Below are positions 52,653 through 59,533 of a stretch of 64,000 nucleotides of DNA, piece after piece (the first letter of the stretch is position 1; every line of letters begins with the position of its first letter). The stretch is from positions 1-64,000 of the forward strand of contig JAFYYM010000079.1 in NCBI GenBank assembly GCA_017557535.1, written 5' to 3'. The notes beneath the pieces are model-generated. The model was given only the letters and a program-made list of their open reading frames with translations. It did no database searches and was not told the origin of the DNA. The translations under genes were made by a program, and so were the position numbers. The stretch comes from Bacteroidales bacterium (GTDB lineage: Bacteria; Bacteroidota; Bacteroidia; Bacteroidales; UBA932).

Positions 52653-54974
52653 ATGAAAATCAATTTGTTAACAATCGGAGCGCTACTACTTGCTTGTTTG
52701 TCCGTTTTCGGACAGAATCACACCAGCTATGTTGATCCGTTCATCGGCACGGACGGGATGGGGCACACCTTCCCGGGAGCTTGCGTTCCCTTCGGAGGGG
52801 TCCAACTAAGCCCGGACACCGATTCTATTCCTCATAATATCAACGGAAAGTACCAGCCGATGGTCTATGAGACCTGCGCCGGCTACCGTTACAACGACCC
52901 TACGATCGTGGGATTCAGCCACACCCATTTCAGCGGGACAGGTCACTCAGACCTCGGGGACATTCTCATAATGCCCGCCACGGGTGCCTTGAAGCTTAAC
53001 CCTGGCACAGCTGAGAATCCGGACAGCGGATTCCGCAGCCGGTTCAGCCACTCGACTGAGAGCGCCCACCCCGGAATCTATGGGGTGACGCTTGATGACT
53101 ATGGTATAAAGGCAAGGCTCACAGCGACTTCCAGAGTTGGGGTACATGAATATACCTACCCTTCAGACGGTCATATTATCCTTGACCTTATCCACGGAAT
53201 TTATGACTATGACGGAAAAACCTTGTGGGCGGAAGTACAGGTTCAGGATCCGACCCATGTCACCGGTTATCGTATAACCAATGGATGGGCAAGGACAAAT
53301 TACACCTATTTCGCCATCGAGTTCTCCCAGCCAATCGTCGAATACGGCTACACGGACCGCCAGAAGATTGACTATAAAGGCGGCTGGAGCAAGTTCGACA
53401 CCAGCAGGAATTTCGCGGCGATGGCTGGACGCAAGTTGGTCGCATGGTTCAAGTTCGCCACTTCAAAGAACCCGAAACTGACCGTCAAGGTCGCCCTCTC
53501 CTCAACGGGAACCACCGGAGCCATGAAGAACCTGATGTCGGAGGCTGTCGGCAAATCATTTGACCAAATCGCCTCCGAGGCTTCCAAGGCTTGGGAGAAG
53601 GAACTGAGCCAGATGGAGATACAGGGAACAGACGCTGAGAAGAGGATGTTCTACACATCCCTCTACCACACCATGATCAACCCCTCTGTCTACATGGATG
53701 TGGATGGTTCTTACAGGGGCCTTGACCATGAGATCCATAAGGCAGATGGATTCACAAACTACACGGTATTCTCACTCTGGGACACCTATAGGGCGGAGCA
53801 CCCGTTCCTGGCGCTATTCAAGCCGGACAGGGATAGGGACATTGTCATGTCAATGCTGGCTCATTACGACCAGAACGTGCTCCACATGCTCCCGGTTTGG
53901 AGCCATATGGCGAACGAGAATTGGTGCATGAGTGGTTATCATGCGGTGCCTGTGCTGGCAGACGCCATCGTTAAAGGACTGGATATTGATAAGAGCAGAG
54001 CCCTTGAAGCCATGGTGACAACATCGAAGCAAGAATGGTACTGTGGCCTTGGGGACTATATGAAACTTGGATATGTTCCCTATGACCACATCTCCACAGC
54101 GGCCAGTAACACCCTTGAATATTCCTACGACGATTGGACCATCTGGAACACCGCCCGCCTCTCCGGGAACAAGGCGGTGGAAGAGGAATACGCCAAAAGG
54201 GCATTATATTACAGGAATGTGTTCGACACCGGGCTGGGCTTCTGCCGGCCGAAATATACGGACGGGACCTTCAAGAAGGATTTCGACATCATGCAGACCG
54301 TAGGAGAAGGATTCATAGAGGGTAACTCGTTGAATTTCACCTTCCACGCCCCACAGGATGTGTATGGCGTGATGAAGCTGATGGGCGGAGAGAAGAAGTT
54401 CACCGCCGCTCTCGACGAGCTATTCTACAACGACCTTCCCGAATATGCTTATGCGGACAATGAGGACATCACCAAGGACTGCCTGATAGGAGGTTATGTC
54501 CACGGCAACGAACCAAGCCATCATATTCCTTACCTTTACGCATGGACCTCGCAGCCTTGGAAGACCCAGTATTGGATGAGGGAAATCATCAACAGGATGT
54601 ACAAGCCCGAGATACGCGGACTCGGCGGCAACGACGACTGCGGCCAGATGAGCGCATGGTACATTTTCGGAGTCCTGGGATTTTATCCAGTCTGTCCCGG
54701 AAGCGACCAGTACGTGATCGGAGCTCCATTCCTAAAGGAGGTATCCATCAATCTTCCAAACGGGAAGTCGTTGACAGTCAAGGCCCCGAAGGCAAGCGAC
54801 AAGAATCGCTATGTCAAGAAGGTCCTTCTGAACGGCAAGGAATATTCCAAGCTCTACCTGACCCATTCCGACCTTATGGCCGGCGGTGTCATTGAGTTTG
54901 AGATGGCCTCCAAACCCAACAAGTCCAGAGGTCTCAAGCCCGCTGACAAGCCTTATTCGATGACTTCCCGATAG
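52653..54974 (+). CDS. GH92 calcium-dependent exo-alpha-mannosidase
   Basis: A 773-residue secreted enzyme (signal peptide LLLACLSVFGQ). The N-terminal domain opens with the family signature YVDPFIGTDGMGHTFPGA, then FSHTHFSGTGHSDLGD. The toroid domain contains SLWDTYRAEHPF, GYHAVPVLAD, HGNEPSHHIPYLY and GNDDCGQMSAWY; the last two carry the catalytic acid and base carboxylates in this family. GH92 enzymes invert alpha-linked mannose from N-glycans or mannan. The ATG at 52653 is used over a TTG at 52644. Its 3' end overlaps the convergent CPBP gene by 22 bp. A second, diverged GH92 gene follows at 57101. Confidence 0.95.
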   Translation: MKINLLTIGALLLACLSVFGQNHTSYVDPFIGTDGMGHTFPGACVPFGGVQLSPDTDSIPHNINGKYQPMVYETCAGYRYNDPTIVGFSHTHFSGTGHSDLGDILIMPATGALKLNPGTAENPDSGFRSRFSHSTESAHPGIYGVTLDDYGIKARLTATSRVGVHEYTYPSDGHIILDLIHGIYDYDGKTLWAEVQVQDPTHVTGYRITNGWARTNYTYFAIEFSQPIVEYGYTDRQKIDYKGGWSKFDTSRNFAAMAGRKLVAWFKFATSKNPKLTVKVALSSTGTTGAMKNLMSEAVGKSFDQIASEASKAWEKELSQMEIQGTDAEKRMFYTSLYHTMINPSVYMDVDGSYRGLDHEIHKADGFTNYTVFSLWDTYRAEHPFLALFKPDRDRDIVMSMLAHYDQNVLHMLPVWSHMANENWCMSGYHAVPVLADAIVKGLDIDKSRALEAMVTTSKQEWYCGLGDYMKLGYVPYDHISTAASNTLEYSYDDWTIWNTARLSGNKAVEEEYAKRALYYRNVFDTGLGFCRPKYTDGTFKKDFDIMQTVGEGFIEGNSLNFTFHAPQDVYGVMKLMGGEKKFTAALDELFYNDLPEYAYADNEDITKDCLIGGYVHGNEPSHHIPYLYAWTSQPWKTQYWMREIINRMYKPEIRGLGGNDDCGQMSAWYIFGVLGFYPVCPGSDQYVIGAPFLKEVSINLPNGKSLTVKAPKASDKNRYVKKVLLNGKEYSKLYLTHSDLMAGGVIEFEMASKPNKSRGLKPADKPYSMTSR

Positions 54975-55906: not shown

Positions 55907-57061
55907 ATGGAAAGACGAGATTTCATCCAAAAAACAGGTCTCACGAGTTTGGCAGGGCTGGCGGCAGCTTCCCTGTCTTTTCAGTCCTGTGCGCCAGCAT
56001 CATGCGATAATACGGACAATAGGTTGAATGTCAAGGATTTTGGGGCGAAGGGGGACGGTAAGACACCTGACTCCAAAGCAATCCAGGAGGCCCTGGATGC
56101 GGCTGGAAAGATTAATGGCACCGTTTGGTTCCCCCCTGGAGTTTACCGCTGCCATGACTTGAAAGTTCCTCCATATGTGACTCTGCTGGGTGATCCAGTG
56201 TGGATATACAGGTGCGAAAACCGGGGGGCGGTCCTTGAACTCGACAGTAATGATGCCGAGTGTTTGCTTGACATTACGGGAGCGTATGCTGTCAGGATTA
56301 GGGGCATGGTGCTTAACGGTATTCCAGACGCCAAGAAACCGATTCACGGAATATATCTGAACAACACTGAGGCTTGGAGTCCGAAAGAGGATACCATCGT
56401 CATCGACGACACCAAGGTTATGAGGTTCTCGGGGCATGGGGTGTTCCTGAAGCGCATTTGGCTCTTTATTGTACGCCACAGCCATTTCATGAGCAACAAA
56501 GGTGATGGCTTCAGGATACTCGGCTGGGACGGCTTTGTCACTGACAACCAGTTTTCAGGGAACGGCGGAAACGGTTTCGGCTGCGACGACTGTGGAGCCA
56601 CCGTCATGTTCACGGCCAACCGGGTGGAATGGAACCGCGGATACGGGCTGTTCATCCACAACGGGGACGACTGGAATGTGACCGGTAATTCTTTTGACCG
56701 TAACTATAGCGCTGGTTTATATGCCCTTAAAGCCAGTGCGGTCGCCGTCACCGGCAATGTATTCAGGCGCTGCGGCAAAGATTCGAATCTCCTGAATCCC
56801 GGAGAACGTTCCTGCCAGGTGAAACTCGAGGACTGCCACGGTCTTTCTATGACCGGGAATGCATGCCTCGCCGGACAGGATGACGGAGGATCCGGGTTAT
56901 TCACCCCTCAAGTAGGTTTCATAATCAAGAACCTTTCCCACACAATCATTTCCGGCAATACGCTTTGGAGGGGCTATATGGAAGACATGGTTGTCGACCT
57001 TGGTGGACACGGTGAAGGCTTCATCATGAAGGATAATGTCGGCTGCCCTCGACAGGAATAA
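55907..57061 (+). CDS. Secreted parallel beta-helix protein with Tat-type signal
   Basis: A 384-residue protein. The N-terminus MERRDFIQKTG fits a twin-arginine signal and is followed by a hydrophobic stretch and a lipobox-like FQSC. The sequence VKDFGAKGDGKTPDSKAIQEALDAA (about residues 40-65, in two conserved blocks) is the start of the pectate-lyase-3 (GH28-like) beta-helix superfamily. Repeated coils follow (GDGFRILGWDGFVTDNQFSG, NGGNGFGCDDCGATVMFTANRVEWN, GYGLFIHN). Members act as glycan lyases, hydrolases or isomerases. No catalytic Asp trio of GH28 was identified. It lies between two GH92 genes and may act on the same glycan. Confidence 0.75.
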   Translation: MERRDFIQKTGLTSLAGLAAASLSFQSCAPASCDNTDNRLNVKDFGAKGDGKTPDSKAIQEALDAAGKINGTVWFPPGVYRCHDLKVPPYVTLLGDPVWIYRCENRGAVLELDSNDAECLLDITGAYAVRIRGMVLNGIPDAKKPIHGIYLNNTEAWSPKEDTIVIDDTKVMRFSGHGVFLKRIWLFIVRHSHFMSNKGDGFRILGWDGFVTDNQFSGNGGNGFGCDDCGATVMFTANRVEWNRGYGLFIHNGDDWNVTGNSFDRNYSAGLYALKASAVAVTGNVFRRCGKDSNLLNPGERSCQVKLEDCHGLSMTGNACLAGQDDGGSGLFTPQVGFIIKNLSHTIISGNTLWRGYMEDMVVDLGGHGEGFIMKDNVGCPRQE

Positions 57062-57100: not shown

Positions 57101-59533
57101 ATGGATTATCTCAAAGGATTGGCCGCTGCGGCACTCATCTCCATAACTTTCTCTGTCATACCCGTTTCCGGCAATATAGCCCTCCCCAAAACCTTCGGGC
57201 CTGACGGCCCTCGTCCCACCACCGGCTTCGCCGGCGGTTCCCCCGTTCACGTGGCCACGGGCGGCCACGGTTTCTGGGAGGGCTATATTGCCGGAAACGA
57301 AAACCAGAAGAAGTTAATTGACGATGTGAATGTGTTCGTGGGGACGGATGGGTTCGGGAATGTGTATCCTGGACCGCAACTGCCTTATGGAGGCATCCAA
57401 ATCAGTCCCGACTGCGACGACAAGGACTACGACTGCGCAGCCGGGTACAAATATTCAAAGCCTTTCGTGCAAGGATTCAGCTTGACTCACCTTAGCGGAA
57501 CCGGGATTCCCGATCTCGGTGATTTTCTGTTCCTTCCGGGAATCGGACAGGAGATAAAACCCTCCAAACTTGACCATGGCAAGGAAAATTCGCACCCGGG
57601 ATATTACGGAATAACCCTGGACGGTGATGTCAAAGCAGAAATGACAGCCGCACTCCGTTCTGGAGTATTCAAATTCACCTATCCAAAGAAAGATGGCGCC
57701 TACGTGATGATTGACCTCGACCACACCCTGAAATGGGATTGTGAATGGTCAACTGTCAAACTCCTTGACGAATACACAATCATCGGCAGCAAGGTCGTGG
57801 CTGGATGGAACCCTGGACGTTATGTCTATTTCGCTGCCCGATTCTCGGAACCTATCAAAGACTTCACAATTCTTCAAAATGGTGAGCCTGTCATCTACAA
57901 CACAAAACGCTTCCGCAGCTCGTTGGAGGCCTGGGGCAAAAAGCTTAAGGTTGTAGTACGCTTTGACGGCGACTCATCGCCGTATATAACCCGTATGGAA
58001 CTGCCAACGGCTGTCGGGAAGCTAGGCGGAACTTCCGAGCGGCAACAGTTCCAACTGGAGATCAAGGTGGCTGTTTCCGGCGTCGGCACTGACGGCGCCC
58101 TGTTGAACCTTAAGGAACTGGATGGAAAGGACTTTGACAAAGTGCTGGACGAAGCGGAGAACACATGGGAGAAGGCTCTCGGGACATATTCATTGGACAG
58201 CAAGGACAAAACGCTCCGGGAGACCTTCTACACCAGTGTCTACCGTACCATGCTCCATCCCTTCGTGTTTCAGGACGCCGACGGACGGTTCCGCGAGCAC
58301 GACGGCACGATAGGCAAGGCGGAAGGATTCACAAACGTCACGACATTCTCCTTCTGGGACACCTTCAGGGCCTTCGAACCTTTGATGAATCTCGTCAACA
58401 GGCCCCTCCAGGCTGACATAGCGAACTCCATGCTCGCCCACTTCGACAAGAGCGCCGAGAAGATGCTGCCTTACTGGTCATTCTACGGAGGAGAGACCTG
58501 GTGCATGATAGGCTATCATTCGTGTTCCATCCTTGCGGATATGATCCTCAAGGATGTGCCGGGCTTCGACTACGAGAGGGCTTTCCAAGCCATGAAAACC
58601 ACGGCCACCAATGCCCACTACGACTGTATTCCCGAATACACCGCATTAGGCTACGTTCCCTTCGACCTGGAGAAAGAGAGTGTCTCCAAGACCCTTGAAT
58701 ATGCCTACGACGACTGGTGCATTGCCCAGGTGGCAAAGAAGTTAGGTCACGAGGAGGATTATACGTTTTTCCTGAACCGCTCCATGAATTACAAAAACCT
58801 GGTCGATCCCGAGACCGGTTACATGCGAGGAAAGGATTCAAAGGGCGCCTGGCGTGATCCTTTCGCCCCGATAGCCTATCAGGGACCCGGCTCAGTCAAC
58901 GGCTGGGGCGACATCACCGAAGGGTTCACTATGCAATACACCTGGAGCGTTTTCCATGACTTTGACGGCTATGTCCAAATGGCTGGTCGCCAAAGGCTTA
59001 AGAAATACCTTGACGAGCTCTTCACTATTGAGCTTCCGGAGGATATCCCTGGAGCGCACGATATCTGGGGCCGTATCGGTGGCTACTGGCATGGGAATGA
59101 GCCATGCCACCACGTGACCTTTCTTTATGACTATTTTGGGGAGCCTTGGAACTGCCAGAAATGGGTCCGCTACGTGGCCAAGAACTATTACGGCAATGAG
59201 CCAGGCTCCCTGAGCGGCAACGACGACTGCGGGCAGATGAGTGCTTGGTACCTCTTTAACTGCCTGGGATTCTATCCCTTCTGCCCCGGAGCCGACTGGT
59301 ACTATGTCGGTTCCCCTTGCGTTCCGGGAATGTCGATCACCCTCTCTAACGGCAAAAAGATCGAGATGACCACCAGCGGCTGGAGCGAGGACGCCGTCTA
59401 CGTCAAGGCCGCCTGGCTCAACGGCAAAAGGCTTGACTATCCCGTCATCAACTATGACGACATCAAGGACGGAGCGACCCTCCACTTCGAGATGTCCCGC
59501 AAGCCGGTCAAGGGAGCGTTTACAGCCCGATAG
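57101..59533 (+). CDS. GH92 exo-alpha-mannosidase carrying an in-frame palindromic insert
   Basis: An 810-residue secreted enzyme. The signal peptide (residues 1-23, ending VIPVSG) is followed by an odd Gly/Pro-rich stretch, residues about 21-66, encoded by a 137-bp palindromic element. The GH92 domain then begins at DVNVFVGTDGFGNVYPG. Hallmarks are LTHLSGTGIPDLGD, FWDTFRAFEP, GYHSCSILAD, HGNEPCHHVTFLYD and GNDDCGQMSAWY, so the catalytic core is complete. The insert lies before the first beta domain and would form an exposed linker, which explains why it is tolerated. Sequence divergence from the first GH92 suggests a different mannoside linkage. The gene is convergent with the PD40 gene ten bases away. 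Confidence 0.93.
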   Translation: MDYLKGLAAAALISITFSVIPVSGNIALPKTFGPDGPRPTTGFAGGSPVHVATGGHGFWEGYIAGNENQKKLIDDVNVFVGTDGFGNVYPGPQLPYGGIQISPDCDDKDYDCAAGYKYSKPFVQGFSLTHLSGTGIPDLGDFLFLPGIGQEIKPSKLDHGKENSHPGYYGITLDGDVKAEMTAALRSGVFKFTYPKKDGAYVMIDLDHTLKWDCEWSTVKLLDEYTIIGSKVVAGWNPGRYVYFAARFSEPIKDFTILQNGEPVIYNTKRFRSSLEAWGKKLKVVVRFDGDSSPYITRMELPTAVGKLGGTSERQQFQLEIKVAVSGVGTDGALLNLKELDGKDFDKVLDEAENTWEKALGTYSLDSKDKTLRETFYTSVYRTMLHPFVFQDADGRFREHDGTIGKAEGFTNVTTFSFWDTFRAFEPLMNLVNRPLQADIANSMLAHFDKSAEKMLPYWSFYGGETWCMIGYHSCSILADMILKDVPGFDYERAFQAMKTTATNAHYDCIPEYTALGYVPFDLEKESVSKTLEYAYDDWCIAQVAKKLGHEEDYTFFLNRSMNYKNLVDPETGYMRGKDSKGAWRDPFAPIAYQGPGSVNGWGDITEGFTMQYTWSVFHDFDGYVQMAGRQRLKKYLDELFTIELPEDIPGAHDIWGRIGGYWHGNEPCHHVTFLYDYFGEPWNCQKWVRYVAKNYYGNEPGSLSGNDDCGQMSAWYLFNCLGFYPFCPGADWYYVGSPCVPGMSITLSNGKKIEMTTSGWSEDAVYVKAAWLNGKRLDYPVINYDDIKDGATLHFEMSRKPVKGAFTAR
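57163..57299. repeat. 137-bp palindromic element inside the GH92 gene
   Basis: Perfect 24-bp inverted arms at 57163-57186 and 57276-57299 enclose 89 bp. An inner 5-bp stem (57189-57193 with 57269-57273) continues the fold. Three separate hairpins lie inside: 57197-57210 (GGGCC stem, TGAC loop), 57222-57234 (CCGGC/GCCGG, TTC loop) and 57251-57268 (GTGGCC/GGCCAC). The predicted fold is cloverleaf-like. It is open in the reading frame and sits directly after the signal peptide. No second copy was seen in this window. Confidence 0.85.

Follow-up and report, generated by a model that had tools for sequence, protein, structure and literature searches.

A 137-bp palindrome that is read in frame inside a GH92 gene of a Bacteroidales bacterium (UBA932) recurs at many unrelated loci as a conserved, pseudoknotted core between complementary arms. 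We judge, with a probability of roughly 0.7, that it is a dispersed, non-autonomous palindromic element whose encoded peptide is a tolerated by-product, and whose arms are homogenized and core inverted by template switching or recombination. The copy was found in the window, the whole 64,000-nucleotide stretch analyzed (positions 1–64,000 of contig JAFYYM010000079.1, assembly GCA_017557535.1, forward strand).

The reading frame of the GH92 gene is open from the ATG at 57101 through the element. In the 811-residue translation counted from 57098, Pfam placed Glyco_hydro_92N (PF17678) at residues 77–293, downstream of the insert, and PF07971 at residues 334–800. These results confirmed the first-pass annotation of this DNA, made from the letters alone, in placing the insert between a signal-peptide-like start and the enzyme and in estimating that about 45 residues are added with the frame kept open (Table 1). 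The perfect complementarity of the outer arms (P1) over 24 bp was likewise confirmed. P1 could be extended to 31 nt at 94% complementarity by an inverted-repeat search and was the longest of the 11 inverted-repeat pairs in the window (at least 18 nt, arms within 400 nt), the runner-up measuring 24 nt at 79%. The three inner hairpins that had been described as far from chance were all recovered in the RNA MFE fold of the element, with −89 kcal/mol compared to −51.99 (s.d. 4.29) in 200 dinucleotide shuffles (z = −8.63, 0/200 as good); the DNA fold gave z = −8.50. The MFE fold gives the last outer base of P4 to the arm pairing instead. In addition, ACGGG in the P4 loop is complementary to CCCGT upstream of P4, forming a pseudoknot that was absent from the earlier description. 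The cloverleaf proposed there comes near to this multi-hairpin fold, to which the pseudoknot has to be added.

Elsewhere in the window, positions 56946–56979 at the end of the upstream gene resemble parts of both element arms (15 nt at 93% and 16 nt at 81%), by chance or as an old remnant. A weak match to the core model lies at 2770–2826 (15.6 bits, E = 0.098), and a second GH92 gene at 52731–54926 has 42% identity to the query over residues 77–806.

Table 1. Features of the element-bearing GH92 gene, in window coordinates.
Feature	Position	Strand	Basis or remark
GH92 gene carrying the element in frame	57101..59533	+	signal-peptide-like start, insert, GH92N, GH92 catalytic domain
Palindromic element, 137 bp	57163..57299	+ (plus orientation relative to the gene)	adds ~41–46 residues
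Outer arm P1, left strand	57163..57186	+	24 bp perfect
Outer arm P1, right strand	57276..57299	+	24 bp perfect
Hairpin P2, GGGCC/GGCCC	57197..57210	+	RNA MFE fold
Hairpin P3	57218..57238	+	RNA MFE fold; covariation
CCCGT, pseudoknot 5′ side	57242..57246	+	sequence; covariation in family
Hairpin P4, CGTGGCC-ACGGGC-GGCCACG	about 57250..57269	+	sequence, covariance model
ACGGG in P4 loop, pseudoknot 3′ side	57257..57261	+	sequence; covariation in family
Region matched by the family-core covariance model R1	57213..57274	+	55.8 bits, E = 1.3e-10

A DNA search of the element's own genome (G000) returned partial matches at unrelated places, in which the inner part was conserved and the arms were different yet complementary. 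Covariance model R1 gave 9 matches in this genome at E ≤ 0.001, a count that rose to 16 at E ≤ 1; ten were inspected, and several weak ones had full arms and an open frame. The core pattern CCCGTTCA-N(1–5)-GGCCACGGGCGGCC was present in 20 of 199 genomes of the taxonomic family, spanning 7 of 25 genera, while the reversed pattern used as a control had no match in the same 199 genome rows. A scan of genome contigs yielded at least 119 stretches with the core pattern; all 119 listed were titled Bacteroidales, Bacteroidia or members, and Candidatus Cryptobacteroides and Merdivivens were among the matches listed. With filters stricter than those of the family scan, the core was detected in 5 of 393 genomes across the order (four families) and in 1 of 395 across the phylum, namely its own genome, the phylum sample being poor in members of the order. 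The element family has so far been seen only in Bacteroidales. Since the collections partly overlap in genomes, copies were de-duplicated by sequence, which left at least 168 distinct contexts. Searches with the 137-bp element or the core pattern gave no match among viral contigs, phages and plasmids. Rfam at its curated threshold, applied to the window copy and 20 small loci, gave over the elements just sub-threshold hairpins such as miRNA families, and no description of the present element family was found in the open-access papers searched.

Within the own genome, the matches on C2 and C135 probably represent a single locus split between the ends of these two contigs. Both ends fall within an MtaB copy with a partly duplicated arm, and the palindrome may have caused the contig break. 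On the same contig as the window and beyond it, two more core matches (G000:C58:77666–77731 and 78508–78569, E = 8e-4 and 0.2) lie within long open frames that read as a putative GH3 glycosidase; one gene may hold two elements.

The anatomy of the family was derived from 149 of the 168 contexts, 19 having been dropped: 13 lay at contig edges, and in 6 no arm was detected. The copies kept have a median of 27 arm pairs and a median length of 134 bp, with 12 arm pairs or more in 139 of them. Between the arms follow, in order, an optional P2, the motif (A/G)TCCC, P3 and P4, whose six-base loop ACGGGC pairs with CCCGT a few bases upstream. Arm sequence varies from locus to locus with complementarity kept, and the conserved part is the structured core. 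A scan for hairpins with a six-base loop between complementary arms, in which the pseudoknot was not required, found full 5/5 pseudoknot complementarity in 69 of 105 contexts: CCCGT/ACGGG in 56, CCCTC/GAGGG in 9, CCCCC/GGGGG in 2, and CCCAT/ATGGG and GCCGC/GCGGC in 1 each, proportions that are biased because most of the scanned sequences had been collected via the ACGGG pattern. An apparent 70th full match was a run of N. By eye, the remaining 35 contexts seemed to be different hairpins within these elements, chance cases or off-register loops, one of the last (L123) being a second CCCAT/ATGGG copy.

Covariation was assessed on core alignment A4 of 30 copies, picked from 44 for ease of alignment; it was used instead of the mixed-subtype alignments A1 and A2, with poorly aligned arms, and A3, with few consensus pairs. 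The pseudoknot helix was 100% paired in the 30 copies, and two of its five pairs had changed on both sides. Over the whole structure, 51 double-change cells were counted compared to 12.2 in shuffles (0/500 as many); further pair types were not clearly above shuffles in the same copies (20 versus 17.4, 68/500). Core changes among the GH92 copies fall in loops or junctions or are compensatory. Among the MtaB copies, the pseudoknot is intact in G129 (CCCGC/GCGGG) and G263 (CCCGT/ACGGG), and four of five pairs form in G000 and G359 (CCCGC/ACGGG).

In genomes G035 and G183, several copies have the same long arms and the same outer ends, GATTATCCGCAAAATTACCCC or close variants of it, in units of ~200 bp. 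Examples are L081, L083, L089, L093, L052 and L105, and G035 has 33 pattern matches. These copies look like a MITE-like amplified subfamily. The L182 and G150 pairs, with identical inner arms and different complementary outer arms, prompted the idea that arms are copied wholly from the target flank, which was rejected because subfamilies, and some GH92 orthologs, have common arms. Flank copying is possible as the origin of the outermost base pairs alone.

Genes carrying copies were named from Pfam domains and a reading of the proteins. Among 133 copies with 400 bases on each side, a long open frame covers 38, ends inside 19 and starts inside 21, and the other 55 show none of these; some of the 38 covering frames are chance frames. 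Several copies are in frame inside housekeeping genes. In 20 proteins analyzed by Pfam, a single model extends through the insert in five (TilS, RibF, two HemW proteins and a radical SAM protein of YgiQ type), models flank it on both sides in ten, and a model lies on one side only or is cut at the insert in five, including the window GH92. Covered copies have 3.08 of six frames open compared to 1.96 in the others (p = 1.3e-5), as expected if only readable insertions survive in genes; this excess partly reflects base composition, because single-letter shuffles of the same copies differ too (2.16 and 1.72, respectively). Two HemW copies, L004 and L202, occupy one position in the gene but are translated in different frames, which argues that what is conserved is something other than the encoded peptide. 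The GH92 and MtaB copies are read on both strands. Insertion into transcription terminators was also considered; a few copies fit and the pattern is not general, with A-rich left and T-rich right ends in 3 of the 95 copies that have no covering frame and in 0 of the 38 that have one. Relatives carry other, partly repeated in-frame inserts in the HemW loop (L301, L305 and L307) and the MtaB linker (L337 and L339), which appear to be hypervariable, insertion-prone linkers.

At orthologous sites, the element was found filled, flipped, decayed and empty. This part of GH92 was matched by 57 of 300 genomes of the genus, and the 30 loci read comprised seven with an intact core (three plus and four minus), two decayed copies, two deletion remnants and 19 in which none was seen. 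The core is plus in the window, G425 and G402, and minus in G506, G263, G359 and G487, as well as in L197 from another collection; the sequence of L228 is identical to that of G359. The decayed copies (G217 and G301) and the in-frame deletion remnants (G310 and G375) were all judged by eye, and G129 provides a near, clean site without the element (GTTTCCGGACAAAAG). Ordinary protein sequence would have left the same coding stretch in all close orthologs, with synonymous variation breaking the arms; this pattern was sought in the 30 loci and not found, which upholds the first-pass view that the palindrome is an element. CCGG, itself palindromic, stands at both ends of seven of eight intact GH92 copies (the left end of L197 is CTGG) and once in the empty G129 site. 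Because the close pair G058/G139 offered no clean empty site (of five non-shared sites used as queries, three retrieved a relative, and each of these showed larger intergenic differences), a target duplication could not be fixed.

A 20-row tree of the GH92 catalytic part pairs G506, with a minus core, and G425, with a plus core, as sisters (support 99/98); between these two, the left arm shows 2 differences in 32 positions and the core 0 in 77. Parsimony on this tree requires four orientation changes, with remnant G375 scored as plus, and three presence changes, with remnants scored as present. Both orientations were also found in HemW (G000 plus, G263 minus) and in MtaB (G000 and G129 minus, G359 and G263 plus). 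For each of these genes, 30 loci were read from 137 matching genomes in 151 searched, and the core was present in 2 for HemW and, pseudoknot variants included, in 7 for MtaB.

Among copies of one core type, divergence is usually much lower in the core than in the host gene. Between the window and G506, the core differs at 1 of 77 positions and the left arm at 3 of 32, compared to 151 of 887 in the next 900 gene bases. Over the 28 pairs of eight GH92 copies, core differences range from 0 to 8 of 77, versus 70–193 of 792–900 in the gene. The three HemW pairs give 1–2 of 50 versus 162–208 of 700, and two MtaB pairs with the same P3 give 1 of 54 and 1 of 57 versus 127 of 700 and 112 of 640. Between MtaB copies of different P3 type, core and gene have diverged to a similar degree (four mixed pairs, 8–10 of 54 plus 3 gaps versus 112–140 of 640–700). 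Arms may differ at about half of their positions and still close (15 of 32 between G402 and G263). Relative to G506 and G425, both window arms are altered together, from GCTTCC with GGAAGC or GGGAGC to GTTTCC with GGAAAC. Element and gene trees conflict for G263, G402, G487 and G375; G263 has arms, core type and short flanks as in G487 and a leader and catalytic part as in G402, a mosaic suggesting that short tracts have been exchanged between species. Such exchange may lie behind some flips and, besides selection, may have lowered core divergence. That a copy held over a long time is so strongly conserved would be unexpected for a dead selfish insertion and leaves room for a host function.

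In the explanation that we favor, the element would insert at many sites, and only frame-keeping insertions at permissive linkers and loops would survive, and the encoded peptide would itself be functionless. The arms would be homogenized and the core flipped when a polymerase switches template from one arm to the other, or by recombination between them. Conservation of the pseudoknot suggests that something recognizes the folded single strand; a trans-acting system or host function recognizing this strand, as RNA or DNA, may have spread the element, and the same recognition may explain why the fold is conserved. Template switching would give self-repairing arms and flips without an enzyme and would leave dispersal unaccounted for. 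PMC8604942 describes template switching at inverted repeats in yeast genes that homogenizes arms and inverts spacers of 2–5 bp; the spacer here is ~80 bp, which speaks against this step. The mobility proposed by the first-pass annotation agrees with copies at many unrelated loci, although movement itself was not observed and no mobilizing gene was found; the enzyme examined, Y1 transposase PF01797, occurred in 4 carriers and 5 presumed non-carriers out of 12 each, which speaks against a RAYT link. A more far-reaching and less probable reading is that the family may form a separate class of mobile nucleic acid. Its heritable unit would be the pseudoknotted fold and not a sequence end; the core would be copied or exchanged, and template switching would rewrite the arms at each site, keeping the hairpin closed. 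The element would sit in essential genes without evident harm, flip repeatedly and have its fold selected while being translated.

Invertons are common in Bacteroidales, and the GH92 copy could be a programmed intragenic one, with a site-specific recombinase flipping the core and thereby switching the N-terminal peptide of the enzyme (phase variation). Near relatives do carry both orientations in frame, observed between species for GH92, HemW and MtaB, and the frame of the window element stays open when it is reversed, as seen in a frame check only. We nevertheless consider an inverton improbable, as a sequence-specific recombinase should not tolerate arms that differ between loci, and switching has no obvious use in the housekeeping genes that also hold copies. 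It is more improbable still that the palindrome is a cis-acting structured mRNA element controlling GH92 expression or secretion. A very stable fold near the start codon and a core more conserved than the gene would suit that role; the same element is nevertheless found in unrelated genes, in mid-gene and intergenic positions, orthologs hold it in opposite orientations, and it is missing or decayed in relatives that retain the GH92 gene. Control of secretion by a structured mRNA, raised in the first-pass annotation, gained no support from copies that lie in genes for cytoplasmic enzymes, in both orientations, and between genes.

There is also little chance that the family is a classical MITE, that is, a deletion derivative of an insertion sequence in which the arms serve one IS transposase as terminal inverted repeats. 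The ~200-bp G035 and G183 units, with their common long arms and outer ends, would fit such an origin, but most other copies have locus- or subfamily-specific arms and no family-wide ends, what is conserved is the internal fold, and PF01797, the transposase family examined, shows no association. That the stretch is ordinary coding sequence or an assembly artifact is barely credible: the open frame alone would be compatible with it, yet some relatives lack the element, separate assemblies hold it at the same place in both orientations, and the core turns up again at loci unrelated to this one.

Palindromic elements that are read in frame are known above all from Rickettsia, and the mechanism of their spread is, to our knowledge, open. 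The family described here, with more than 100 copies in gut and rumen Bacteroidales and with filled, flipped, decayed and empty orthologous sites, makes their mode of insertion, the persistence of their fold and their effects on proteins testable. It also shows a single stretch evolving under a double constraint, that of folding and that of keeping a frame open, and the pseudoknot changes within translated genes are compensatory.

Several known systems share some of these properties. The yeast process of PMC8604942 likewise combines arm homogenization and spacer inversion with repeated flips and amino-acid changes; the ~80-bp spacer here, in contrast to 2–5 bp, lies inside a conserved, dispersed element. 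In nematomorph mitochondria, according to PMC6649704, long perfect inverted repeats occur within functional genes, and both arms code for conserved protein. Long perfect inverted repeats are kept in functional genes here too, but the arms are inserted and not conserved as protein. REPs are also short palindromic repeats with some members inside genes; they measure 20–40 bp and have GTAG or CGTC tags (PMC3733652), whereas our elements are of ~137 bp (median 134 bp) and show no association with the Y1 transposase of REP/RAYT systems. MITEs, for which in-frame fusions with genes are known (PMC10969869), are similarly short and non-autonomous with inverted-repeat ends, and the G035 and G183 copies are MITE-like; the family as a whole has no common terminal repeats. 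Closest in behavior are the Rickettsia palindromic elements (RPEs), which PMC10969869 describes as dispersed elements of ~150 bp, nearly half of them in frame within unrelated genes and each encoding a conserved peptide. Our elements are likewise palindromic, dispersed and in frame in unrelated proteins, with a median of 134 bp and 27 arm pairs in 149 copies, but they belong to another phylum and have no conserved peptide, the copies being translated from both strands and in more than one frame. The comparison with Rickettsia elements made in the first-pass annotation, whose overall interpretation was partly supported, holds for behavior and not for every defining feature. As the conserved peptide is lacking and the comparison was by description rather than by sequence, we regard the family as RPE-like in behavior and do not file it as RPE. 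Set beside RPEs on the same descriptive basis, its own traits are locus-specific arms, a pseudoknotted core and both orientations at one locus.
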